Assembly: GCA_009777775.1 (NCBI GenBank)
Contig: WRLE01000002.1
Location: forward strand, 1 to 64,000
Length of the DNA stretch: 64,000 bases
Source: Oscillospiraceae bacterium
GTDB taxonomy: Bacteria > Bacillota > Clostridia > Oscillospirales > Oscillospiraceae
Reading direction: 5' to 3'
The position numbers and the translations under genes were made by a program. Positions 643 through 29,374 of the stretch are shown one piece after another. Numbering within the stretch: the first letter of the stretch is position 1; every line of letters starts with the position of its first letter. The notes below the pieces were generated by a model, which was not told the DNA's origin, searched no databases, and was given only the letters and a program-made list of their open reading frames with translations.

Positions 643-687
643 AAACTCCTAGCTAACTCCTAATTCCTAACTCCTAATTCCTAACTC
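643..687. repeat. degenerate CTAACTCC/TAATTC tandem repeat, copy a
   Basis: Short units such as CTAACTCCTAATTC are repeated up to the stop codon of the SLH gene. Related tracts end the other array genes at 5841-5892, 8261-8306 and 11170-11216. The complement resembles TTAGGAGTTAGG. Confidence 0.7.
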
Positions 688-3037
688 ACCCGTAGGTTCT
701 GCCGCTGAATCTTTCGCTCGGCAATATGACACGGCTGATTATCGCTGCGGCTTCTGCTCTTGTTATATTGTTGCCTGGGTTGAATGTGCCGGCTGTGTCG
801 CTGCCGCCGATTACTCCTGCTTCATATAGCATAAATATGGAGCTGGAATGTGTAGTTGAAACACTCACGTCAGGTAGAGAGTTCACCGTGTTTTGTTTAG
901 TAAACTCTGATTTAGGAAGTGCATTGGCGAATATATATGCCATCTCCCTGCGGGTGGCTAGCTGGTTGAAGGTAGTAAAATCAGAAGCATATATAATACC
1001 ATTTGATATGGCATAATCGATATAGACCTGGAACCAGGGTATACCCTGAACAAAATCATCCGCTCCCGTAGTATATATTCTGTGTACCCTTGCCGCCACC
1101 GTTATGGCTTCTGCAACCGTAATGTTCCCAGTGGGTCTAAAGGTGTTGTCCGGGTAGCCAGACATCAAACCGTATTCATAGGCGTTTGCTACTGCTTTTT
1201 CCTTATTATAGCCGTACCAAGCGTCTTCATTTATGTCATTAAACATCCCTGCGGTATAATCTCTCGACTTTTGGAAATTGTCCATGGAGCCTGTTTCAGC
1301 TAGACTTGCTCCACCTGATGTTGATGCTTCCCATTTCGCATATAGGGTGAGGTTTGCTGTAACAGCAGTGTCGAAATTGTATGGGGTAGTCAATGCAGCG
1401 TTGCTGAACCAGCCTGCGAATGTATTTCCGCTTTTAGTCGGGTCTGCAGGTTTTGTCACCTTACCACCCGTTGCGACTGTCTGGCTTGTAACTGCGCTAC
1501 CGCCGTTGGAATTGAAAGTAACTGTGAATGTGGTGGGAGCGGTATCCCATTTAGCGTAAAGGGTGATATTCGCAGTTACGTTTGCGTTGAAGTCATAAGC
1601 ATTGGTGAGCTCCGAGTCCGAATACCACCCGCCGAAGGTGGAATCTGTCTTCGTCGGGTCTGAGGGTTTGGTCACCTTGCCACCCGCTGCGACAGTCTGG
1701 CTCGCAACTGAGCTCCCACCATTGGAGTTGAATGTGACTGTGTGTTCTGCTATCACTTCCTCCTCGATAACTTTTATTCCTTCAATTTCGAAAAAGCCTT
1801 CATTACCATTATACGAATATCTGATACCATAGGTTTTGACGGTGCTCGGACGTACGAAAGATGTTGATGACACAGCACCAAATGGTAATCCTGGTATGAT
1901 GAGTGGTGGTCTCACGAAACTTTCTTCAATCGCCCACTGGACAGTAGCTTCTTCTGGATAAACTTTTAAATCAGTGGATGTATCGATTATATACTCATCT
2001 TTGCCAGCAGAATTGTCCCAAGCGCAGACCACAGCAGGGCTGTCGATAATTGAATATTCGCCGTTCATGCGAACTACAGCAGATCCCAAATATGCTGATT
2101 CCGTTATCACAGTATCATTACCCTGGGCGAATATAAATCCGCCATTTATAAACCATTGGGCTTGCTCATTGCCATTTGTAATGGCATAACCAGAATTTGC
2201 ACTGATGGTGCCACCTGTGATACCTAGCATATGGGTGTTGTAAATTCCATTACCCGCTCCTGTGTTCCTGATAATACCATCGCTCATAGATAAGGAAGGT
2301 GCACGAACAGTAGCATCATTAGCAGAGCTCCCCGATGATTCCAATAGTCCGCCGGTTATTGTGACAGAGTTATTCGCAGCTATTGCACAATCTGCTCCTC
2401 TTACTACACCGTTGCTTATTGTAATTTGGGAATCATTATTGCCTTCTATTGCTGTTCCATTTGCTGAGATAACAATACCTCCAGAAATGTTTATGCTTCC
2501 ACTTGTGGCAATAGCAGAGCGAATGCCTTCGCACTCCACCCTACCGCCTGTTACTTCTACATCGCCGCCGTTAATACATATGGAATCCTTCGAGCGCACT
2601 GTGCCGCCTGTAACCTTTACAGTAGCTGCCGCTGATCCCCGTATAACATCCCCGCCGGCCCCCTCCAAATTTTCTATAAGTCCTCCCGTTGGTATTTCCA
2701 GAGTACCCCAAGCAAACATATGGATGAGGTAGGTGGCGTTCCTCCCACTAAATGAAGCACTCCATTTTACCGTAACTCCATCATGAAGGTATAAGGTAAG
2801 CGCATTTGTTGCATCGGCGACATTTCCAGTCACAGTAACAGTGTTTCCATTGACGGATGCGCTAAATTGCCCTGTCTTAGCTCCTCCATTACCTGGATCG
2901 AAGATGTTAATAACATGCGCAACCTGCGAAGCGGTCATTGCGCTGGCGCTGGCAGTCATTGGTAGCGCCAGTAGCATCCCCATTACCATTGCTATAGCAA
3001 GCAAAGTAGCCAGTGGTCTTCTCGTTTTTCTATTCAT
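686..3037 (-). CDS. SLH-domain surface protein with two InlB-type repeats (array member 1)
   Basis: This is a 783-residue secreted protein. The start is the ATG at 3037 (MNRKTRRPLATLLAIAMV), preceded by an AGAGGAAG ribosome site. The frame is open further upstream, but only across the R1 element. A signal peptide covers about residues 1-30. Residues 50-350 contain many short xVTGGxV and xISGGI units, typical of a right-handed beta-helix. Two InlB-type repeats (TVTFNSNGGS...LYAKW) lie at about 430-565. Three SLH domains lie at about 590-783, including SGYPDNTFRP and ITRAEAA. SLH domains bind pyruvylated secondary cell-wall polymer, so the protein should sit on the cell surface. Its C-terminal 200 residues are nearly identical to those of the neighbouring paralogues, while the beta-helix varies. 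The ligand is unknown. Confidence 0.9.
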   Translation of the reverse strand: MNRKTRRPLATLLAIAMVMGMLLALPMTASASAMTASQVAHVINIFDPGNGGAKTGQFSASVNGNTVTVTGNVADATNALTLYLHDGVTVKWSASFSGRNATYLIHMFAWGTLEIPTGGLIENLEGAGGDVIRGSAAATVKVTGGTVRSKDSICINGGDVEVTGGRVECEGIRSAIATSGSINISGGIVISANGTAIEGNNDSQITISNGVVRGADCAIAANNSVTITGGLLESSGSSANDATVRAPSLSMSDGIIRNTGAGNGIYNTHMLGITGGTISANSGYAITNGNEQAQWFINGGFIFAQGNDTVITESAYLGSAVVRMNGEYSIIDSPAVVCAWDNSAGKDEYIIDTSTDLKVYPEEATVQWAIEESFVRPPLIIPGLPFGAVSSTSFVRPSTVKTYGIRYSYNGNEGFFEIEGIKVIEEEVIAEHTVTFNSNGGSSVASQTVAAGGKVTKPSDPTKTDSTFGGWYSDSELTNAYDFNANVTANITLYAKWDTAPTTFTVTFNSNGGSAVTSQTVATGGKVTKPADPTKSGNTFAGWFSNAALTTPYNFDTAVTANLTLYAKWEASTSGGASLAETGSMDNFQKSRDYTAGMFNDINEDAWYGYNKEKAVANAYEYGLMSGYPDNTFRPTGNITVAEAITVAARVHRIYTTGADDFVQGIPWFQVYIDYAISNGIIYASDFTTFNQLATRREMAYIFANALPKSEFTKQNTVNSLPDVSVSTTHSSSIFMLYEAGVIGGSDTAGTFNPGNNITRAEAAAIISRVILPSERFSGRTYG

Positions 3038-3105
3038 TACAATGTTCTTCCTCTCATAATACGAATATATTTTAATTGCTAAATTCTTCTCTCGTAATAT
3101 TACAC

Positions 3106-3235
3106 GAACCATTCGTAGGGCGCGGCATCCTTGACGCGCCGTTTGGGGTGCGTTGGGTGTTGGTTCACCGCCTGGGGTGCCGTGGAGGCTTGCGGCGCGT
3201 CTGGGAAGCCGCGCCCTACAGAAGCCGCGCCCTAC
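3106..3235 (+). repeat. R1 inverted-repeat element, copy b
   Basis: It has the same left and right arms as copy a, with two 16-bp right-end units. It lies between the 3' end of the sigma-factor gene (3249) and the start of SLH array member 1 (3037). With copy c at 5684-5813 it brackets the sigma-factor gene in direct orientation. Confidence 0.85.
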
Positions 3236-3248
3236 ATTTATTTTCATG

Positions 3249-5531
3249 TCATAGGGTGTAACTGTTCCAGCCATATTGATACCAGCCGCCGTTGCCTTGT
3301 GTATCTATTTTGATTTTTATTTTACCATCGACGTGCAAGTCACTTACGTCAAGATAAACATCGACCCACATCTCTTCTCTGGCTTCGGCTACAGCTGTTG
3401 CTGCTACCGCTGGTACATAAATACTTATTGTCGCTTTATAAGTGTCGGTAGCCACGGCATTCACTAATGTCCCGCGATTAAACCATTCCGTTTGCAAATA
3501 TCCGAAGTCTATTGCAAAAGTTCCTCCGCTGTATGTAAACCCAACAAATTGATTATCGGTCGCCGTCCAGTATCCACGTAGACGATCCCAGATGATGTCA
3601 AGGGCATCACTCCTGGGTAAGTTCGCAATCGATCCAGATAGACCGTTATCAATAGAATCATCAGGTACTACGGTAGTGGGTATGGGTGCTGGTATATCCC
3701 TTTCCCGAGGTATTCTTGGAGTTTCTCTCACCTCAAAATTCCGAGGTATTTCAAATGGTATCCTATCATTTTGTGGTGTTGTAGGTGAAGCTTCAGCAGA
3801 ATCATCAGTACCCCGCGGATTCACCACTGTTATTTCACTTTGTATTATTCCAAATGGTGCTGGCGTGGTAGTTGCTATCTCCATATGAGGAATAAAGTCC
3901 TGGTTAATATCCGTTGCTTCGTTGTCATCAGTCGGTGCATCACTCTCCACCACCCTTTGATGTTGGCTGTCTGTTTGCGTTTCATCACTTTCCGATTCAT
4001 CTGTTGCATCATCATCTGAAGCCACACCTTCCGTTGTCGGAGCATCGCTTGGAATTGTATCAATAATTGTATCAATAGAAGAGTCATCAGTTTGTATTGT
4101 CTCAGTTGATGGCGCTTCATCTGGCTGTATAACAGGCAGCAAGGAGTCTAAGGGAGATGGTGCTGGTGAAGAGATAATATCTTCATCTGAAATGGTATCA
4201 TTATCTACTATGTCCTCTTCTTGCGAATCAATAGTGCTATTGTTATCTCCTAGATAGTTTTCTTCATGTTCATCGATGCTTTCAATGGGATTTATTTGCT
4301 CTATGTCATCATCTATATCGTCTGTATATGGTTCTTCTCCAGGAGCAGATATATCTGTTTCTTCCTCTTGGTCTATATCGATGTTAATGGCTCTTTCCAT
4401 TATCACTGTATCATCTACACTGCTTATGTCATCATCGTTGTCTAGAACATCACCCTGATTCATGTTGGAAAAGAACACTATCAATAATACCGCCACAGTA
4501 CCGACTACTGCGATAATTGATACCCATGCAGCGATTTTCAATTTAGGTGATGTTGTTTTTTTTGCTTCGCCTGTCACATTGGTCTTCGATGTTTCCAAGG
4601 GTATTGATGGCGCAGATGATGCAGACAAGCTGGTTGCGCTAGTCCCGCCGACTGCGCTGCTCCCGTTGGCTGCGGTGTTCCCACTGGTTGCACTGTTCCC
4701 GCCGGCAGCGGTGCTCCCGCTGGTTGCGGTACTCCCGCTGGCTGCACTGTTCCCGCTGGCAGCGGTGCTCCCGCTGGTTGCGCCGTTCCCGCCGGCTGCG
4801 GTGCTCCCGCTGGTTGCGCCGTTCCCGCTGGAAATAAATTGCGTTATCGCTCCCTTTGTTCCTTCAATCACACTTTGCCCCAAAGAGAGAGTTTCAATAT
4901 GACTTTTGAAAACCACCCCAAAGGAAAGCATTAGTATTCCTGTAACACCATACAACTTCTCTCCAGATTTGCGTTCCTGTTCTTCTATTTCAGACTTTAT
5001 TGCTTTTCTGGCGAGAAATAGGCGCGTTTTTACTGTGTTTGCGCTACACTCCATAACCTCTGCTATTTCGTCCACGGACATTTCATTAAAATAATATAGC
5101 ACTATTGCTTGTCTCTGGACTTCTGACAAACTTTCAATTATCATACCAAGCCGTTCTTTTAAGTCTTCTCTTTCTGCGTAGGCTGCTGGCAGCAGTTCAT
5201 CTGATTCCATTGAACTAAGACTCTCGACTTCTTGCTCAGCATCAAGCAATATGGCGACATTCTTCTTTCGCAGTTGCATATTGCATAGATTCTTTGCGAT
5301 GACCTGTATCCAGACCGAAAATGTTGCTGGAGTCTTTAATGTCTCCAGTTTTTGCCAAGCGGTGATGAATGCTTCCTGCAGAACATCCTCTGCGTCGCTG
5401 GCATTTCTCATAATCATTCTGGCGAATGCATATACTTTATCGCAAAATATATCATACAACATTTCAAAGCTATCAGTATCCCCGCTTTGTGCAGAAATTA
5501 CAAGGTCTGTCTCTTGCTGTGTCATTGCCAT
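3249..5531 (-). CDS. ECF-type sigma factor fused to a membrane segment and long acidic extracytoplasmic tail
   Basis: This 760-residue protein starts at 5531 (MAMTQQETDL), with GGAGG eight bases upstream. Residues about 24-90 are a sigma-70 region 2 (DAEDVLQEAFITAWQ). Residues about 125-178 are a region 4 helix-turn-helix (MSVDEIAEVMECSANTVKTR). A weak hydrophobic stretch is at 194-207. A Gly/Ser/Ala/Thr tandem linker spans about 235-305. A strong transmembrane helix at about 331-354 follows a Lys-rich KKTTSPKLK, which by the positive-inside rule puts the N-terminal half in the cytoplasm. Then come about 270 acidic, low-complexity residues and a more ordered C-terminal domain (about 640-760, DIIWDRLRGYWTATDN) that I do not recognise. 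Ordinary ECF factors are about 180 residues. It sits inside the SLH array between two R1 copies, so it may control surface-protein genes; that is inference. How it would be released from the membrane is not evident. Confidence 0.85.
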   Translation of the reverse strand: MAMTQQETDLVISAQSGDTDSFEMLYDIFCDKVYAFARMIMRNASDAEDVLQEAFITAWQKLETLKTPATFSVWIQVIAKNLCNMQLRKKNVAILLDAEQEVESLSSMESDELLPAAYAEREDLKERLGMIIESLSEVQRQAIVLYYFNEMSVDEIAEVMECSANTVKTRLFLARKAIKSEIEEQERKSGEKLYGVTGILMLSFGVVFKSHIETLSLGQSVIEGTKGAITQFISSGNGATSGSTAAGGNGATSGSTAASGNSAASGSTATSGSTAAGGNSATSGNTAANGSSAVGGTSATSLSASSAPSIPLETSKTNVTGEAKKTTSPKLKIAAWVSIIAVVGTVAVLLIVFFSNMNQGDVLDNDDDISSVDDTVIMERAINIDIDQEEETDISAPGEEPYTDDIDDDIEQINPIESIDEHEENYLGDNNSTIDSQEEDIVDNDTISDEDIISSPAPSPLDSLLPVIQPDEAPSTETIQTDDSSIDTIIDTIPSDAPTTEGVASDDDATDESESDETQTDSQHQRVVESDAPTDDNEATDINQDFIPHMEIATTTPAPFGIIQSEITVVNPRGTDDSAEASPTTPQNDRIPFEIPRNFEVRETPRIPRERDIPAPIPTTVVPDDSIDNGLSGSIANLPRSDALDIIWDRLRGYWTATDNQFVGFTYSGGTFAIDFGYLQTEWFNRGTLVNAVATDTYKATISIYVPAVAATAVAEAREEMWVDVYLDVSDLHVDGKIKIKIDTQGNGGWYQYGWNSYTL
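4640..4835. repeat. in-frame GC-rich minisatellite in the sigma-factor gene
   Basis: Short imperfect units encode GNGATSGSTAAG-like blocks (Gly, Ser, Ala, Thr only) between the sigma domains and the membrane helix. The block is a multiple of three in phase, so copy-number change would alter linker length without breaking the frame. Confidence 0.75.
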
Positions 5532-5683
5532 ATTTGCTTCCTCCAGTATCTATATCAATTGAGGCTTTCATAATATAGATGCATATTTTGTTATATTGGT
5601 TTTATGTTTTATGAAATTTTTTCGTTTGTGGTGTAGCCTTCGAATAGTATTTGGTGATACTACGTATTTTGGCAGATTACCAA

Positions 5684-10646: not shown

Positions 10647-10949
10647 ATGTCAAAGATGAAGTTTTTATCTATTAGAGAGTTACAACAGCAAGGCAGTGGA
10701 ATAAAGGAAATTCTTGTTAATGACGGTCGAATCGTTATCACGAGTAACGGTAAGCCCATTGGTCTTGCAGTTGGTGTTGACGAGGATTCATTTGAAGAAA
10801 TTCTTGAAGACTGGAAAAGAGTTAGGGAACTTAGGCATCAGCGTTTCATAGACCAAAAGCTCGATGAATCTGAAAATCTTGCAACTGAACCGAATGCCCA
10901 ATGGATAGACGAGGATATTTTCTGGTCAGAAGCAGAGGATAGTAGATGA
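10647..10949 (+). CDS. Phd/YefM-family antitoxin
   Basis: This 100-residue protein is read from the ATG at 10647 (MSKMKFLSIRELQQQ), seven bases after GGAG; an ATG at 10626 has no such site. It has the family hallmarks: an N-terminal SIRELQQQGSGIKEIL helix pair, then a VITSNGKPIGLAVGV strand pair. These antitoxins form dimers, bind their own promoter and neutralise a RelE/ParE-type toxin through the C-terminal tail. The C-terminal half here is acidic (DEDIFWSEAED). The stop codon overlaps the start of a toxin-like reading frame as ATGA (10946-10949), the usual coupling in such operons, but that frame is broken. The gene runs opposite to the SLH array. Confidence 0.8.
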   Translation: MSKMKFLSIRELQQQGSGIKEILVNDGRIVITSNGKPIGLAVGVDEDSFEEILEDWKRVRELRHQRFIDQKLDESENLATEPNAQWIDEDIFWSEAEDSR

Positions 10950-11008
10950 AATACACCGTTAAATACTTCCAAACTGCACGAACCGTTCGTAGGGCGCGGC
11001 ATCCTTGA
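10946..11008 (+). pseudogene. truncated RelE/ParE-like toxin remnant
   Basis: The frame starts in the ATGA overlap with the antitoxin and reads MKYTVKYFQTA, which resembles the first strand of ParE/RelE toxins. At about 10980 the sequence becomes the R1 element, and the frame ends at a stop at 11006-11008 after 20 codons. No toxin sequence reappears beyond R1. The toxin is therefore lost and the antitoxin is an orphan. Family assignment rests on only 11 residues and on gene order. Confidence 0.6.
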
Positions 11009-11141
11009 CGCGCCGCATTGGGTGCGTTGGATGCCTTGGGTGGTGCGCCGCCTGGGGTTGCTGTGGAGGCTTGCGGCGAGCTTGGTGCGCTGCCGATGTT
11101 ACCGTGGATACCTGCGGCGCGTCTGGGAAGCCGCGCCCTAC
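10980..11141 (+). repeat. R1 inverted-repeat element, copy e (interrupts toxin gene)
   Basis: The left arm begins within the toxin frame. The centre is longer than in the other copies, with an internal partial duplication (two GCGGCG-ending blocks). One right arm follows, then the usual downstream flank of an SLH gene. Confidence 0.8.
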
Positions 11142-11169
11142 GAAATTCATTGTTTTAAGGGTTAAACTT

Positions 11170-11216
11170 GAACTCTTAGCTCACTCCTAACTCCTCACTC
11201 CTCATTCCTAACTCAT
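11170..11216. repeat. degenerate CTAACTCC tandem repeat, copy d
   Basis: Same type of tract as at 643-687, ending at the stop of SLH array member 4. Confidence 0.65.
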
Positions 11217-13552
11217 CCATAAGTTCTGCCGCTGAAGCGTTCGCTCGGTAATATCACTCTGCTAATAATCGCTGCGGCTTCTGCTCTTGTTATATTGTTG
11301 CCGGGGTTGAATGTGCCGGCTGTGTCGCTACCTCCTATGACTCCTGCTTCATATAGCATAAATATGGAGCTGGAATGTGTAGTTGAAACGCTCACATCAG
11401 GTAGGGAGTTCACGGTGTTCTGTTTGGTAAACTCTGATTTTGGGAGTGCATTGGCGAATATATATGCCATCTCCCTGCGGGTGGCTAGCTGGTTGAATGT
11501 AGCAAAATCAGAAGCATATATGATCCCATTGCTTATGGCATAATCGACATAGACCTGGAACCAGGGGGTACCCTGGACGAAATCATCCGCTCCTGTGGTA
11601 TATATGCGATGTACCCTTGCTGCCACTGTTATTGCTTCGGCTATCGTAATATTACCGGTGGGCCTAAAGGTGTTGTCAGGATAACCAGACATCAAACCAT
11701 ATTCATAGGCGTTTGCTACGGCTTTTTCCTTATTATAGCCATACCAAGCGTCTTCGTTTATGTCGTTGAACATCCCTGGGGTGTATGTCCTAGACTGGAG
11801 GAAATTGTCCATGGAGCCTGTTTCAGCTAGACTTGCTCCACCTGATGTTGAAGCTTCCCATTTCGCATACAGGGTGAGGTTTGCTGTAACAGCAGTGTCG
11901 AAATTGTATGCGGTAGTCAATGCAGCGTTGCTGAACCAGCCTGCGAATGTATTTCCGCTTTTAGTCGGGTCTGTGGGTTTAGTTACTTTGCCACCTGTCG
12001 CGACTGTCTGGCTTGTAACCGCGCTACCGCCGTTGGAGTTGAAGGTGACGGTGAATGTGGTAGGGGTGGTATCCCATTTGGCGTAAAGGGTGATATTCGC
12101 AGTAACGTTTGCATTGAAGTCATAAGCATTGGTGAGCTCCGAGTCCGAGTACCACCCGCCAAAGGTGGAATCTGTCTTCGTCGGGTCTGCGGGTTTGGTT
12201 GCCTTGCCACCCGCCGCGACTGTCTGGCTTGCTACAGAGCTCCCGCCATTGGAATTAAATGTGACAGTGTGTTCTACTATCACTTCCTCCTCGATAACTT
12301 TTATTCCTTCAATTTCGAAAAAGCCTTCATTGCCTTTATACGAATAGCTGATACCATAGGTTTTGAAGCTGCTCGGAGGACGTACGAAAGATGCTGATGA
12401 CACAGTACCAAATGGTAATCCTGGTATGATGAGTGGTGGTCTCACGAAGCTTTCTTCAATATCCCACTGGACCGTGGCATCTTCCGGATATACTTTTAAA
12501 TCAGTGGATGTACCTGCTTCATACTCATCTTTGCCAGCGGAATTGTCCCAAGCGCAAATTATGGCATCGCCGCCGACATTAATTGATGAATATTCGCCGT
12601 TAATGCGAACTACAGCAGATCCAATATATGCTGATTCAGTTATCACAGTATCATTACCCTGGGCGAATATAAATCCGCCATTTATAATCCATTCGGCAGG
12701 CACACTGCTATTTCCATTTGTAATAGCATAACCAGAATTTGCGCTGATGGTGCCACCTGTGATACCTAGCATATGGGTGTTGTAAATTCCATTACCCGCT
12801 CCAGTGTTTCTGATAATACCGCCGCTCATCGATAAGTAAGATGCATCAACAGTAGCATACCCAGATGATTCCAATAGTCCACCAGTTATAGAGACGGTGC
12901 CAACGGAAGAAATTGCATTATATGCGCTTCTTACTACACCGTTGCTTATTGTAATGTGAGAATCAGTCCTGCCATTTATTGCTGTACCTTCTGGAGAGAC
13001 AACAATACCTCCAGAAATGTTTATGCTTCCATTTGTGTCAATAGCGTAGCCGTCGTATGGGCTCTCCACTCTTCCGCCTGTAACTTCCACATTTCCGTCC
13101 ATGATACCAGTGTAACTACCTCGCACTGTTCCGCCTGTTACCCTGACTGTGGTTGTAGCTCCTGCAGCTATAGCGAACCCTATTCCCCAACTTTCTATAA
13201 GTCCTCCCGATGGTATTTCCAGAGTACCCTGACCATCCAACTGAATGGCACAGGAATCATTTGTCGCACTAAATGAAGCCCTCCATATTACCGTCACTCC
13301 ATTGTTGAGGTTTAAGCTGAGCCCTTTTTTTGCATCGGCAACATTTCCTGTCACAGTGACAGTGTTTCCCTCGACAGCTGCGCTTAACTGCCCTGTCTCC
13401 GCTCCGCCGTTACCTGGATTGAAGTATCTTATATAATTTCCAATCTGCGAAGCGGTTGATGCGCTGGCAGTCATTGGTAGCACCAGTATCATCCCCATTA
13501 CCATTGCTATAGCAAGCAAAGTAGCCAGTGGTCTTCTCGTTTTTCTATTCAT
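11213..13552 (-). CDS. SLH-domain surface protein with two InlB-type repeats (array member 4)
   Basis: This is a 779-residue secreted protein starting at the ATG at 13552 (MNRKTRRPLATLLAIAMV), with AGAGGAAG upstream. The signal peptide is nearly identical to that of array member 1, and the beta-helix region is also closest to member 1 (MLGITGGTISANSGYAITNGN). Two InlB-type repeats are at about 426-565 and three SLH domains at about 584-779. Parts of the first two SLH domains are closer to member 3, while the last (SVSTTHSSSIFMLYEAGV) matches member 1, so the gene looks like a mosaic. It is expected to be anchored to the cell wall; its ligand is unknown. Confidence 0.9.
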   Translation of the reverse strand: MNRKTRRPLATLLAIAMVMGMILVLPMTASASTASQIGNYIRYFNPGNGGAETGQLSAAVEGNTVTVTGNVADAKKGLSLNLNNGVTVIWRASFSATNDSCAIQLDGQGTLEIPSGGLIESWGIGFAIAAGATTTVRVTGGTVRGSYTGIMDGNVEVTGGRVESPYDGYAIDTNGSINISGGIVVSPEGTAINGRTDSHITISNGVVRSAYNAISSVGTVSITGGLLESSGYATVDASYLSMSGGIIRNTGAGNGIYNTHMLGITGGTISANSGYAITNGNSSVPAEWIINGGFIFAQGNDTVITESAYIGSAVVRINGEYSSINVGGDAIICAWDNSAGKDEYEAGTSTDLKVYPEDATVQWDIEESFVRPPLIIPGLPFGTVSSASFVRPPSSFKTYGISYSYKGNEGFFEIEGIKVIEEEVIVEHTVTFNSNGGSSVASQTVAAGGKATKPADPTKTDSTFGGWYSDSELTNAYDFNANVTANITLYAKWDTTPTTFTVTFNSNGGSAVTSQTVATGGKVTKPTDPTKSGNTFAGWFSNAALTTAYNFDTAVTANLTLYAKWEASTSGGASLAETGSMDNFLQSRTYTPGMFNDINEDAWYGYNKEKAVANAYEYGLMSGYPDNTFRPTGNITIAEAITVAARVHRIYTTGADDFVQGTPWFQVYVDYAISNGIIYASDFATFNQLATRREMAYIFANALPKSEFTKQNTVNSLPDVSVSTTHSSSIFMLYEAGVIGGSDTAGTFNPGNNITRAEAAAIISRVILPSERFSGRTYG

Positions 13553-17320: not shown

Positions 17321-19450
17321 TCAATAAGTTCTGCTACTAAATCTACTTTCAGGGCGAATCACTCGGCTAATGATCGCTGCGGCTTCTGCCCTTGTGATGT
17401 TATTATCTGGGTGAAAGGTTCCCAATTCATCGCTTCCACCGATAACCCCAGCTTCATATAACATTAGAATGAAACTGTAATATGGTGTTGCTGCTCTCAC
17501 ATCTGGAAGAGAGTTCACAGTATTTTGTTTATTAAACTCGGATTGAGGTAATGCGCTGACGAATATATATGCCATTTCTGCACGGGTTGCAGAGCGATTA
17601 TATACGCTAAAATCCTCAGCATGAATTATTCCATTAGCAATGGCATAGTCCACATAAACTTGATACCAGATACTTCCTTGGACAAAATCGTCTTCACCTG
17701 TAACATATATTTTATGTACTCGTGCTGCTATTGTAATCGCTTCGGCTAGAGATATGTTCCCATTGGGTCTGAAGCTGTCATCGGGATAGCCTGACATGAG
17801 CCCATACACATATGCGTTTTCCACAGCTTTTTCCCTATTGCTACCATACCAGAAGTCTTCGTTCACATCTATGAACATTGCTGGTATATATGTCCCAGTC
17901 TTCTGGAAATTATCCAAGGACGCATTCTGGGGTAGTGGCGATGATGACGGCGATGTTGACGGTGATGTCGAAGGAGCTGTTGATGTTGGAGGCGAAGTCG
18001 ATGGCGATGGCGAACTGCTGGTCGAACTTTCCCATTTCGCATACAATGTAATGTTCCCATTTACTGCTGCTCCGAAATTATATGCTGTTGTCAAGCTTTG
18101 GTTAGTATACCAACCGGAAAACAAATAGCCAGATCTCGTTGGAACTTGTGGGACAGTTGCCTTTTCCCCTGCATTAATTGTTTGAGAAGGTACCGCGCTA
18201 CCACCGTTGCTGTCAAAACTGATGGTGTAGCTAATTTGAGTGGCATTATCGATGCTAATGCCGCTTATTGGATAAAATCCTGAGTTTCCACCATTGGAGT
18301 AATCAATTCCAGCAGCGGAATTATTCCTAGCCCATTTTGCGCTCGCTCCAGTATTGACACGAAGATAATTTGACGAAGCTTCGTTATATGTCATTCCACC
18401 AGCGTTTTTATCCCAGGCTACAACCACAGCACTTCCTCCGATACTTGGTGTGACACTACCATGGTTGATGGTTGCATTCCCCATTCCTGTAACACTGCTA
18501 CCAATTCCGAATATGAAACCTCCAATTATGCTAGCAGACGAGTTTCCAGAGCTTACTATCGCACTGTGGTCACTGGATGTAATGACACCACCCGTTATAA
18601 TGAGTTGGGGTCCCAATATGCCAACTGCAACATCATCTATTGCACTAATTATTCCTCCACTTATATTCACCGTACCAGTATCTGTAAAGTTTACGGCACC
18701 AAAAGCCAAACCGCTTTCAGAGAATATCGTACCGCCACTAATGCCGACATTACATGAGTCTCCGCTTATACTCACAGCACCATAACCATCATATACTCCA
18801 TCGCGATACACTTCTCCACCGCTCATATTGAAAATATGGGAGTTTCCATTTACAACAATCGGTGATGGACCTGTGATATATCCACCATAAATATTTAGAC
18901 TGTTATTAGCACCATTATCGAAAATGGCAATACCAGCAGGAGATGCTGCACTAAGGCTTGCTCCTTCAACATCAACTGTTAAATTAGTTCCACTTAGGGC
19001 TATAACAATTCCTCCTGGAGTAGAATTGTCCACCGTACCATCGCTCAGAATCAATGTGGTTCCAACACCAGAAAGGAGAATCGATGCACCGCTTCCAGAC
19101 TTTGACAAAGAGCCGCCCTGGGATAAGCGAAATATACCATTACCAGTTAAGCCAATCATAGTTCCATCGGTGTTTTTTGAATAGCTCGCTGCCCACTCGA
19201 CGCTCACATTAGCGTCTATGTCTAACATAAGAGAATTTGTTGCATCCGTTACCGAGCCGCTTACCGTAACAATATTTCCAGAAGCAACTGCATTCAATGT
19301 GCCAATGCCTCCATGGTCAAAGGCTTCTATTTCCAGTGCGATTTGGTCAGCATCAGCAGCTGATGTGGTGATAGGTAGCGCAGCGAAAACTCCGATTAAA
19401 AGCGTAAATACCAGCAGTGTCGATAATGCTTTCTTTGTTATGTTATTCAT
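17321..19450 (-). CDS. SLH-domain surface protein with one InlB-type repeat (outlying paralogue)
   Basis: This is a 709-residue secreted protein. The start is the ATG at 19450 (MNNITKKALSTLLVFTLL), eight bases after GGAGG; the in-frame ATG at 19465 precedes that site. The N-terminal half has beta-helix units (LNIYGGYIT, VNISGGIIS). One InlB-type repeat (TISFDSNGGS...LYAKW) is at about 407-475. A Ser/Thr/Pro linker at about 485-515, absent from the other paralogues, leads to three SLH domains at about 527-709. It is clearly more divergent than the array genes, so it is an older duplicate. It is separated from the array by the regulator and binding-protein genes but still has an R1 half at its 3' end. 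Confidence 0.9.
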   Translation of the reverse strand: MNNITKKALSTLLVFTLLIGVFAALPITTSAADADQIALEIEAFDHGGIGTLNAVASGNIVTVSGSVTDATNSLMLDIDANVSVEWAASYSKNTDGTMIGLTGNGIFRLSQGGSLSKSGSGASILLSGVGTTLILSDGTVDNSTPGGIVIALSGTNLTVDVEGASLSAASPAGIAIFDNGANNSLNIYGGYITGPSPIVVNGNSHIFNMSGGEVYRDGVYDGYGAVSISGDSCNVGISGGTIFSESGLAFGAVNFTDTGTVNISGGIISAIDDVAVGILGPQLIITGGVITSSDHSAIVSSGNSSASIIGGFIFGIGSSVTGMGNATINHGSVTPSIGGSAVVVAWDKNAGGMTYNEASSNYLRVNTGASAKWARNNSAAGIDYSNGGNSGFYPISGISIDNATQISYTISFDSNGGSAVPSQTINAGEKATVPQVPTRSGYLFSGWYTNQSLTTAYNFGAAVNGNITLYAKWESSTSSSPSPSTSPPTSTAPSTSPSTSPSSSPLPQNASLDNFQKTGTYIPAMFIDVNEDFWYGSNREKAVENAYVYGLMSGYPDDSFRPNGNISLAEAITIAARVHKIYVTGEDDFVQGSIWYQVYVDYAIANGIIHAEDFSVYNRSATRAEMAYIFVSALPQSEFNKQNTVNSLPDVRAATPYYSFILMLYEAGVIGGSDELGTFHPDNNITRAEAAAIISRVIRPESRFSSRTY

Positions 19451-19575
19451 GAATGTGTCCTCCAAAACTATACTACACTTACTTTAACAAGACTGGTTTC
19501 GGTTTTTATTTCCTTTAGCTATATGATTATAACAGGAAGTTATGGACATGGCTATAATTATATAAATTTTACATA

Positions 19576-28099: not shown

Positions 28100-29374
28100 T
28101 TAATGATCCAATAGCTTTACCTTTGCGATTGGAGCAGACAAGCCACGACCGCCGTGGTATATCGCATAAGCATGGTAGATACCTGTAGCATCACAAAAGA
28201 CGAAGCCTTCAGAATACATCGTACCTATGTCTTGGTTTGCAAAATTGACCACTGTACCTTGTGGTAGCTGCTCCAGTTCGTAGATTATGCCTTCCTGGTT
28301 ATAAAAGCGTAAAATATCATCATCAGTAAATTCCAGTTCAAACACAACTATTTTGAAATCATACAAATCGCCGTCATATGACAATACATAGTTGTCACCG
28401 TATGCACCAGGACTCGTCACATATATGACATCAGATTCCGAGTATATACCTTCCACATCTGATTGATAGTCAATAAACAAAGGAACACCAAGAATGACAT
28501 CAACCGGACAATGAAGTTTCCAAAAAGTTTTGCCATCTATCGAAATGACTTCTTGCCCCTCTGTTGAAACTATATATTCAATTTGGAGCTGCACAGTCGT
28601 TTCACCTGAGTTATCGACAATATATTCATCTCCATCCCATTCCACATGTGAAAATGTGAGAAGATTATCATTTTCGAGTTCCCAAATTCCCATGTAAAGG
28701 GTTCCATCATCACTGGTATAATCGACTTCACCATAATCGTAAAATCTATATGACTCTTTGAATCCATCAGAAAAATCCGATGCACTGTGCCAAAATCCAA
28801 GCAAAGATACAGGCTCAGCAATTTGGTTGCTCTCCACAGTTTTTAATATATCCTTAGTTTGTTCCAGAGTAGAATCATTATTTGTGTCTGTAATATTCTC
28901 ATTGAGTACTCTCGCATAGGTTGCTCTGTCGCCATCTTGATCGACTAGAGTTAAGAGGTCATCGGAAAATGAATAGGTAAACTCAAAAGGTCCCTCAACA
29001 ATTCCACCAGTATCCTCATGTCCGCTTTCACCCAGTAATGTAAAACTACCTTCTCCATGGAATACTATTGTTGCATATTTGTCACAGCAGCTTTCATATA
29101 CACGCTTATCAGGAAAAAACTCGATAACAGTCGGAGAACAAAAATACCACAGTGGTACCCCTCTAACCGTTTCCCAAGTACCAACAAACTGGTCATAGAA
29201 ATCATCGTTATTCTCACTAATTGTCTCCGATAATTCACGTATATACTCAGACATTGCGACATCGCTAACACTTGCACTAGGCTGAGCCGGACTCTGCACT
29301 TCATCTCCACAAGCGCATAAGCCCAATATTAGCATCGATAATATGACTGCATATAATCCTAGTTTTCTACTCAT
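28100..29374 (-). CDS. lipoprotein with two lipocalin-like segments, unknown function
   Basis: This 424-residue protein is read from the ATG at 29374, eight bases after GGAG; a GTG at 29377 is in frame. The signal peptide ends with lipobox LCACG. Two segments each begin with a Gly-x-Trp pattern followed by beta-strands (VGTWETVRG at about 65 and LLGFWHSASD at about 190), which suggests lipocalin-like barrels. The start is two bases after the stop of the RCC1-repeat lipoprotein gene, so they form an operon. The two share a near-identical signal peptide and a GTWET junction. Confidence 0.65.
   Translation of the reverse strand: MSRKLGLYAVILSMLILGLCACGDEVQSPAQPSASVSDVAMSEYIRELSETISENNDDFYDQFVGTWETVRGVPLWYFCSPTVIEFFPDKRVYESCCDKYATIVFHGEGSFTLLGESGHEDTGGIVEGPFEFTYSFSDDLLTLVDQDGDRATYARVLNENITDTNNDSTLEQTKDILKTVESNQIAEPVSLLGFWHSASDFSDGFKESYRFYDYGEVDYTSDDGTLYMGIWELENDNLLTFSHVEWDGDEYIVDNSGETTVQLQIEYIVSTEGQEVISIDGKTFWKLHCPVDVILGVPLFIDYQSDVEGIYSESDVIYVTSPGAYGDNYVLSYDGDLYDFKIVVFELEFTDDDILRFYNQEGIIYELEQLPQGTVVNFANQDIGTMYSEGFVFCDATGIYHAYAIYHGGRGLSAPIAKVKLLDH

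Follow-up and report, generated by a model that had tools for sequence, protein, structure and literature searches.

The gene at positions 3249 to 5531 of a contig from an Oscillospiraceae bacterium raises the question of whether one polypeptide can serve as sensor, membrane anchor and ECF sigma factor at once. The window, i.e. the whole stretch of DNA that was analysed, comprises 64,000 nucleotides (WRLE01000002.1, positions 1 to 64,000). A preliminary description, made from the sequence alone, had proposed a layout with complete sigma regions 2 and 4, a linker, a membrane helix and a tail of about 400 residues. Pfam matches, composition and hydropathy bear out this layout (Table 1), and the single frame of 760 aa supports the presence of a sensor-like tail, an anchor and a sigma factor in the same chain.

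Table 1. Position of the sigma factor gene, its predicted parts and its neighbours in the window
Feature	Position	Strand	Basis
Neighbouring SLH surface protein, 862-aa ORF	686..3274	minus	SLH matches
Membrane-tethered ECF sigma factor gene, 760 aa	3249..5531	minus	Single open frame, Pfam sigma regions, full-length G004 homologue
C-terminal outward domain (predicted), residues 621-760 (about 140)	3252..3671	minus	Conserved in G004; no Pfam match
Acidic Asp/Glu/Ser/Thr/Pro-rich stalk, residues 355-620, predicted extracellular	3672..4469	minus	D+E content
Membrane helix, residues 333-354	4470..4535	minus	Hydropathy 2.78, flanking charge
Cytoplasmic (predicted) Ala/Gly/Ser/Thr-rich linker, residues 216-332	4536..4886	minus	Composition; poorly conserved
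Conserved stretch following region 4 (residues 186-215), ERKSGEKLYG...	4887..4976	minus	KLY-type pattern; function inferred
Sigma region 4, residues 126-178	4998..5156	minus	PF08281, 7.6e-17
Sigma region 2, residues 31-91	5259..5441	minus	PF04542, 2.7e-13
Predicted ECF promoter AAACCRA-N13-GCRTCTAT	5575..5602	minus	43 bp before ATG; same spacing before L005, L041 and L086
Neighbouring SLH surface protein, 714 aa	5891..8035	minus	SLH matches

The frame begins with an ATG, has a GGAGG sequence beginning 13 nt upstream and contains no internal stop. The matches to PF04542 and PF08281 both exceeded the Pfam cut-offs, and the presence of regions 2 and 4, together with the absence of a Pfam match to region 3, places the protein among the ECF (group 4) sigma factors. 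Up to region 4, Pfam matches corresponded to sigma regions and related helix-turn-helix models; beyond it, there were none. The 25 NCBIfam matches listed, out of 108, were all to sigma families, with a score of 95.1 bits for the sigma70-ECF superfamily (cut-off 42.9). Directly after region 4 lies the conserved stretch ERKSGEKLYGVTGILMLSFGVVF, followed by a linker of about 117 residues, in which Ala, Gly, Ser and Thr account for 72% of the residues from about position 221 to the helix. The net charge of the 20 residues on each side of the helix is +3 before and -7 after, so that an N-in/C-out orientation is expected, with the sigma domain inside and the 406 residues beyond the helix outside, as first described. 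Between residues 362 and 600, the stalk contains 29% D+E and has a net charge of -65.

The C-terminal domain, present in 2 of the 19 genomes of the genus, is as unrecognised as had been stated: profile searches gave no Pfam match and a search of solved structures gave none up to E 10. A single solved-structure match at E 0.53, obtained with a two-row profile, was judged to be due to chance. The AlphaFold model of this domain, predicted from the single sequence, had a mean pLDDT of 36.8; that of the sigma part, predicted with 7 sequences, had a mean of 55, with the conserved element near 28 and not placed. As for the resemblance drawn between this domain and the lipoprotein at 28100, a G-x-W pattern is indeed common to both, but nothing beyond that was found, and a lipocalin-like relation was not supported (hhalign probability 0.3%, best BLASTP E 1.2).

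A full-length homologue of 657 aa is encoded in another genome of the genus (G004, contig C17). Compared with the 760-aa protein, 136 of 185 residues are identical in the sigma domain and 14 of 30 in the conserved stretch, as are 29 of the 84 aligned residues in the linker, 58 of 185 in the stalk and 63 of 133 in the C-terminal domain; both ends are therefore kept, while the connectors drift. Moreover, a 640-aa fusion from a Clostridiales MAG (L005; WRCT01000069.1) is 69% identical over residues 1-213. Its tail gave no match to the C-terminal domain of the window protein, and the two tails are unrelated. A frame error or chimera joining two genes was rejected on the basis of these two proteins, which exclude it in practice.

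Other fusions were found as well. The genome of L005, in which SLH matches are absent, encodes a second, window-type fusion of 464 aa (L167, 4541-9736), flanked by secreted proteins bearing at their ends what we take to be dockerin-like repeats. The window's own genome (G000) carries a second, distant fusion of 800 aa on contig C11 (L039, 5588-7990), with repeated 'VTVKYYLDT...GYMG' modules in its tail and a 1190-aa secreted protein adjoining. In genome G008 (contig C16; L041, 9757-10611), the fusion frame ends within the membrane helix, and an LRR-like frame (10674-11234) follows out of frame; this broken fusion is either a decayed gene or an assembly error.

Both same-strand neighbours of the sigma gene encode SLH proteins and no anti-sigma gene adjoins it, in agreement with the preliminary description. 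Judging from its signal peptide, the 862-aa SLH ORF likely starts near 3042. The gene directly before the G004 fusion also codes for an SLH protein, with which the 714-aa protein shares 38% identity over 729 aa. The bracketing of the sigma gene by copies of the R1 repeat was also found, with core matches at 3116 and 5693. This GC-rich repeat, with the core TAGGGCGCGGC, occurs between array genes at window positions 455, 3116, 5693, 8091 and 10990 (+) and 17297 (-), and further cores are found in reverse orientation about 100 bp on.

The window fusion is not peculiar to this array and is one member of a family spread across many genomes. About a dozen sigma matches in the 19 genomes of the genus sit in frames of 400-800 aa and, among the matches listed for 400 genomes of the family, dozens lie in frames of 400-1190 aa. 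At least 142 of these 400 genomes matched the sigma domain at 1e-25, ordinary ECFs included; elsewhere in the class, 32 of 391 genomes did so at 1e-30, again with ordinary ECFs included, and long frames occur there as well. We retrieved 45 family regions with long sigma frames for analysis, and the 60 loci scanned contained 64 sigma ORFs with at least 60 residues beyond the sigma domain.

When the window protein was added to these 64 relatives, a hydrophobic segment was observed after region 4 in 64 of the 65 proteins (L045, the one without it, is truncated at the end of its contig), although the search, which takes the best window within 25-200 residues, is biased towards finding one. The charge was more positive before than after this segment in 54 of 64 cases, with 8 showing the reverse and 2 being equal, and a second such segment was found in none of the tails. 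In most members, the linker is long and of low complexity, with a median Ala/Gly/Ser/Thr content of 71%. The KLY-type pattern after region 4 was found in 51 and a Pro-hydrophobic pattern in 54 of the 65 fusions; the window protein has the former and lacks the latter. The part from region 4 to the helix contains a CxxC motif in none of the 65 and is altogether free of Cys in 50. A Pfam anti-sigma domain was not found in the window protein.

In a tree of 88 sigma-domain sequences, the 23 ordinary ECFs, which were chosen by likeness to the window protein and do not amount to a census, formed one clade (support 0.88). The change between fused and ordinary was counted once on this tree, compared with a mean of 20.6 and a minimum of 16 for shuffled labels. 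The tails are exchanged among members: 61 of them, clustered by BLAST, fell into many groups without mutual matches at 1e-6. A Pfam scan was run on 59 tails (60 listed, with L087 and L116 left out and that of the window added), and matched 14 families overall, among them LRR_5 in 8 tails, LRR_8 in 5, Big_2 in 4 and LRR_4 in 3, these counts overlapping, and RCC1, DUF6273 and DUF3298 in one each; the tail of the window protein had no match. Domains of the LRR, Ig-like (Big_2), RCC1, DUF6273 and DUF3298 types are usual in secreted proteins. The DUF3298 match belongs to L098, whose PdaC match was below its cut-off. Small ORFs of 121-127 aa were observed directly before one fusion subtype (L048, 10147-10530 (-); L050, 1093-1458 and 8523-8894 (+); L051, 8520-8891 (+)); for one of them, L050 8523-8894, the sigma query gave a match at 2e-7. 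They could encode partner regulators.

Few fusions are followed by a membrane-protein gene of the kind usually found after ordinary ECF genes. A TM-bearing gene lay directly downstream of 10 of 54 fusions versus 16 of 19 ordinary ECFs (Fisher p 5.6e-7), a comparison weakened by their different origins: the ordinary ECFs were taken from the window's genus, whereas most of the fusions belong to other genera. Seven of these 10 downstream genes were also listed as secreted proteins of at least 400 aa. With the same controls, a secreted protein of at least 400 aa was found within 3 kb of 31 of the 54 fusions and 3 of the 19 ordinary ECFs (p 0.003). Of 60 fusions of at least 370 aa, seven were lost because the longest overlapping frame was kept (L087, L095, L098, L107, L108, L111 and the second of L050), and the addition of L167 gave 54; the window's own fusion lies outside this count, which also omits L041, L045 and L052 (cut or short proteins), L047 and L049 (no fusion) and L105 (below the 370-aa limit). 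Among the 20 control regions, 19 yielded a control ECF (none in L178).

The promoter pattern AAACCRA-N13-GCRTCTAT was built from the DNA upstream of the window gene, L005, L041 and L086, and was then used to find the other sites. With a weight matrix made from 13 sites, the window gene's own site scored 40.0, or 23.8 once it was excluded from the matrix, against 3.4 for the second-best position in the window. The window list was scored with the full matrix and five shuffles with the leave-one-out matrix, and the next window site was below some of the shuffle maxima, which reached 11.5. The SLH genes flanking the fusion are therefore not predicted targets, even though they have a homologue in the SLH protein before the G004 fusion.

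The exact 27-base pattern AAACCRA-N13-GCRTCTA was found, among the 19 genomes of the genus, 3 times in the window's genome, 5 times in G004 and once in G008. The other 16 had no match, and the three positive genomes are those with a window-type fusion; by our arithmetic, the chance of this split is 1 in 969. As a control, the reversed pattern gave 3 matches in 2 other genomes of the 19. In the window's genome, one site belongs to the fusion gene and the other two to genes for SLH proteins of 737 and 264 aa on contig C26, at distances of 59 and 219 bp, respectively, from their listed starts. All five sites of G004 precede surface-protein genes: three of these have SLH matches, among the matches listed, a fourth product is 73% identical to one of them, and the fifth is truncated at the contig end, its available part being 64% identical to an SLH protein. 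One of the five sites is 35 bp upstream of an SLH gene (start 7087) whose own end is 35 bp from the fusion gene, so that the two genes appear to form an operon.

SLH-domain matches numbered 126 in the window's genome, 75 in G004 and 21 in G008, which in the first two is estimated at roughly 2% of genes, so that SLH genes behind 2 of 2 and 4 or 5 of 5 sites are not expected by chance. In G008, the exact motif was found only before its own fusion, despite the 21 SLH matches. A shared promoter-like motif is present before some SLH genes of the window's genome and of G004, and the earlier suggestion that the fusion could control surface genes is supported for those on C26 and in G004 but not for the flanking array, which lacks the motif. 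Upstream of the window SLH gene at 17321-19465, we observed AAAACCGAAACC, which resembles the -35 half of the motif and has no matching -10; this site is perhaps read by a paralogous sigma factor.

Among the 400 family genomes, the exact 28-base pattern had 8 matches in 5 genomes. Six of these were in the window's genome, G008 and G302, all of which carry window-type relatives; those in G317 and G402 are at about the level of the reversed control (3). The second site of G302 precedes a small lipoprotein-like frame. More distant members, in G159 and G180, had one-mismatch AAACCGG variants only. When one mismatch was allowed in seven genomes, 19 matches to the pattern and 8 to its reverse were obtained (1 and 5, respectively, in G180), and one-mismatch sites were treated as weak evidence because the reversed control gives so many. 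Accordingly, such matches at G000:C10, G004:C24:8222 and G008:C18 were judged to be chance and not counted as targets. A pattern with a 15-nt spacer at C2:200652 was also dropped as a target, the reversed control likewise giving 1 match. Before the 64 relatives, a generic promoter of the AAC-N-CGTC type was not clearly enriched, whether in a looser form (9 of 64 versus 9.5 in shuffled sequences) or a stricter one (6 of 64 versus 2.2, with a maximum of 8).

Our main reading, to which we give a probability of about 0.6, is that the gene encodes a single-chain, membrane-anchored sigma factor which, cued by its outside tail, drives AAACCRA-N13-GCRTCTAT promoters, including its own and those of some SLH genes. 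The N-terminal ECF sigma domain would be held in the cytoplasm by the flexible linker and one helix, with the acidic stalk and the C-terminal domain within or close to the cell wall, and an outside cue would act on the tail. Release would occur by two-step proteolysis, a site-1 cut being followed by the action of an M50 site-2 protease, and the freed sigma domain would then act on its own promoter and on those of some SLH genes. The sequence itself shows the architecture, the orientation signals, the homologues, the lack of an adjoining anti-sigma gene, and the motif with its co-occurrence. Recognition of the motif by this sigma domain is inferred from these, sensing by the tail is presumed, and proteolytic release is our best guess from the precedents of IutY and SCO4117. 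An M50 protease is encoded in the window's genome but also in 14 of 14 control genomes, and its presence is therefore uninformative. As an alternative to cleavage, the sigma domain might be freed from inhibition exerted by the conserved stretch behind region 4, a candidate autoinhibitory or membrane-contact element.

The sigma domain might also act while tethered, the linker of ~117 residues allowing it to reach RNA polymerase and the tail modulating it through conformation or clustering rather than cleavage. ToxR/CadC-type membrane regulators work while membrane-bound, and the long, low-complexity linker (median 71% A/G/S/T) is more in keeping with a tether than with a rigid contact for autoinhibition; the failure of Pfam to find an anti-sigma domain points in the same direction. 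We nevertheless consider action in the tethered state unlikely, since IutY is reported to be activated by Prc and RseP cleavage (PMC5411451) and the truncation data on SCO4117 have been read as cleavage (PMC8999054, PMC5826349).

It is very improbable that the polypeptide is a surface protein first, with a structural or adhesive tail and a sigma domain that is silent or provides feedback only when the wall is not reached. The tail is built like a surface protein, with a long acidic stalk rich in Ser, Thr and Pro, and surface genes surround the gene. However, conservation is highest in the sigma domain (136 of 185 residues identical in G004) and not in the linker and stalk, and the promoter motif and the fusion co-occur. 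In another reading, the motif belongs to a different sigma factor, by which the fusion gene is transcribed as well, and the fusion itself has a different regulon. At least two further ECF-like genes are indeed present in the window's genome (the fusion on C11 and an ordinary ECF on C6). However, the motif tracks the window-type fusion only (3 of 3 genomes with it versus 0 of 16 without, among the 19), and in several genomes it precedes the fusion gene itself, as described for autoregulating ECFs (PMC6056542), which makes a different sigma factor distinctly unlikely.

If the main reading, a single-chain sigma factor cued from outside, is true, cues at the surface would commonly reach transcription in these bacteria through a single protein, with neither a histidine kinase nor an anti-sigma factor involved, and surface-layer proteins would be governed by at least one branch. 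The exact motif and the predicted targets (two SLH genes here and five surface genes in G004) make it directly testable. A further question follows from the conserved stretch behind region 4, namely by what means an ECF sigma factor lacking an anti-sigma domain is kept silent. More tentatively, the whole family may be free of anti-sigma factors and built on one sigma-linker-helix chassis with exchanged outside domains, each copy linking one cue to a small surface regulon (here SLH proteins and the fusion itself), perhaps while tethered and without a partner.

No fusion of this type was described in the literature searched, a comparison outside which the defining ECF classification (Casas-Pastor et al. 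2021) falls. ECF262 and ECF288 are listed with C-terminal extensions, and their examples, Ruminococcus albus and Blautia producta, are Clostridia; they resemble the window protein in having regulatory extensions, but that of ECF288 is described as Cys-rich. Going by its table listing alone, ECF262 (example Ruminococcus albus) might be this group. The outward modules of RsgI differ between paralogues. Like the fusions, the SigI/RsgI systems of Clostridium thermocellum are described as involving clostridial membrane sensors with outward sensory modules (PMC6056542). In these systems, however, SigI has SigI-C instead of region 4, which the window protein has, and the anti-sigma factor RsgI is a protein of its own. 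DUF3298/PdaC forms the outward part of RsiV, and DUF3298 is also the tail of family member L098. RsiV is described as a lysozyme receptor that silences SigV in Bacillus subtilis and is cut by signal peptidase and RasP (PMC7593790). SigV and RsiV differ from the window protein in being two separate proteins, and the tail of the window protein has no DUF3298.

Single-chain proteins consisting of a sigma factor, a helix and a sensor are known from ECF48, ECF52 and ECF53 of Actinobacteria and from IutY of Pseudomonas, the latter being, according to a review, the one example of this mode that has been characterised by experiment (PMC8999054). ECF52 is described as exclusive to Actinobacteria (PMC8999054, PMC5826349). 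Its member SCO4117 of Streptomyces coelicolor combines sigma domain, helix, low-complexity extension and outward domain in one chain, for which cleavage has been proposed (PMC8999054, PMC5826349). The window protein shares the helix and the outward low-complexity stalk but has neither the zinc-finger anti-sigma domain, which in ECF52 lies between sigma and helix (CxxC in 0 of 65 fusions), nor the C-terminal carbohydrate-binding domain, its tail having no Pfam match. IutY of Pseudomonas putida (ECF243) likewise unites the sigma factor and the signal-receiving part in one membrane protein, which is reported to be cleaved by Prc and RseP (PMC5411451). IutY has a periplasmic anti-sigma domain of the CSS type, whereas Pfam showed no anti-sigma domain in the window protein, and its partner is a TonB-dependent outer-membrane siderophore receptor. 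SCO4117 and IutY are the closest precedents, and we therefore count the window fusion as a variant of that kind.
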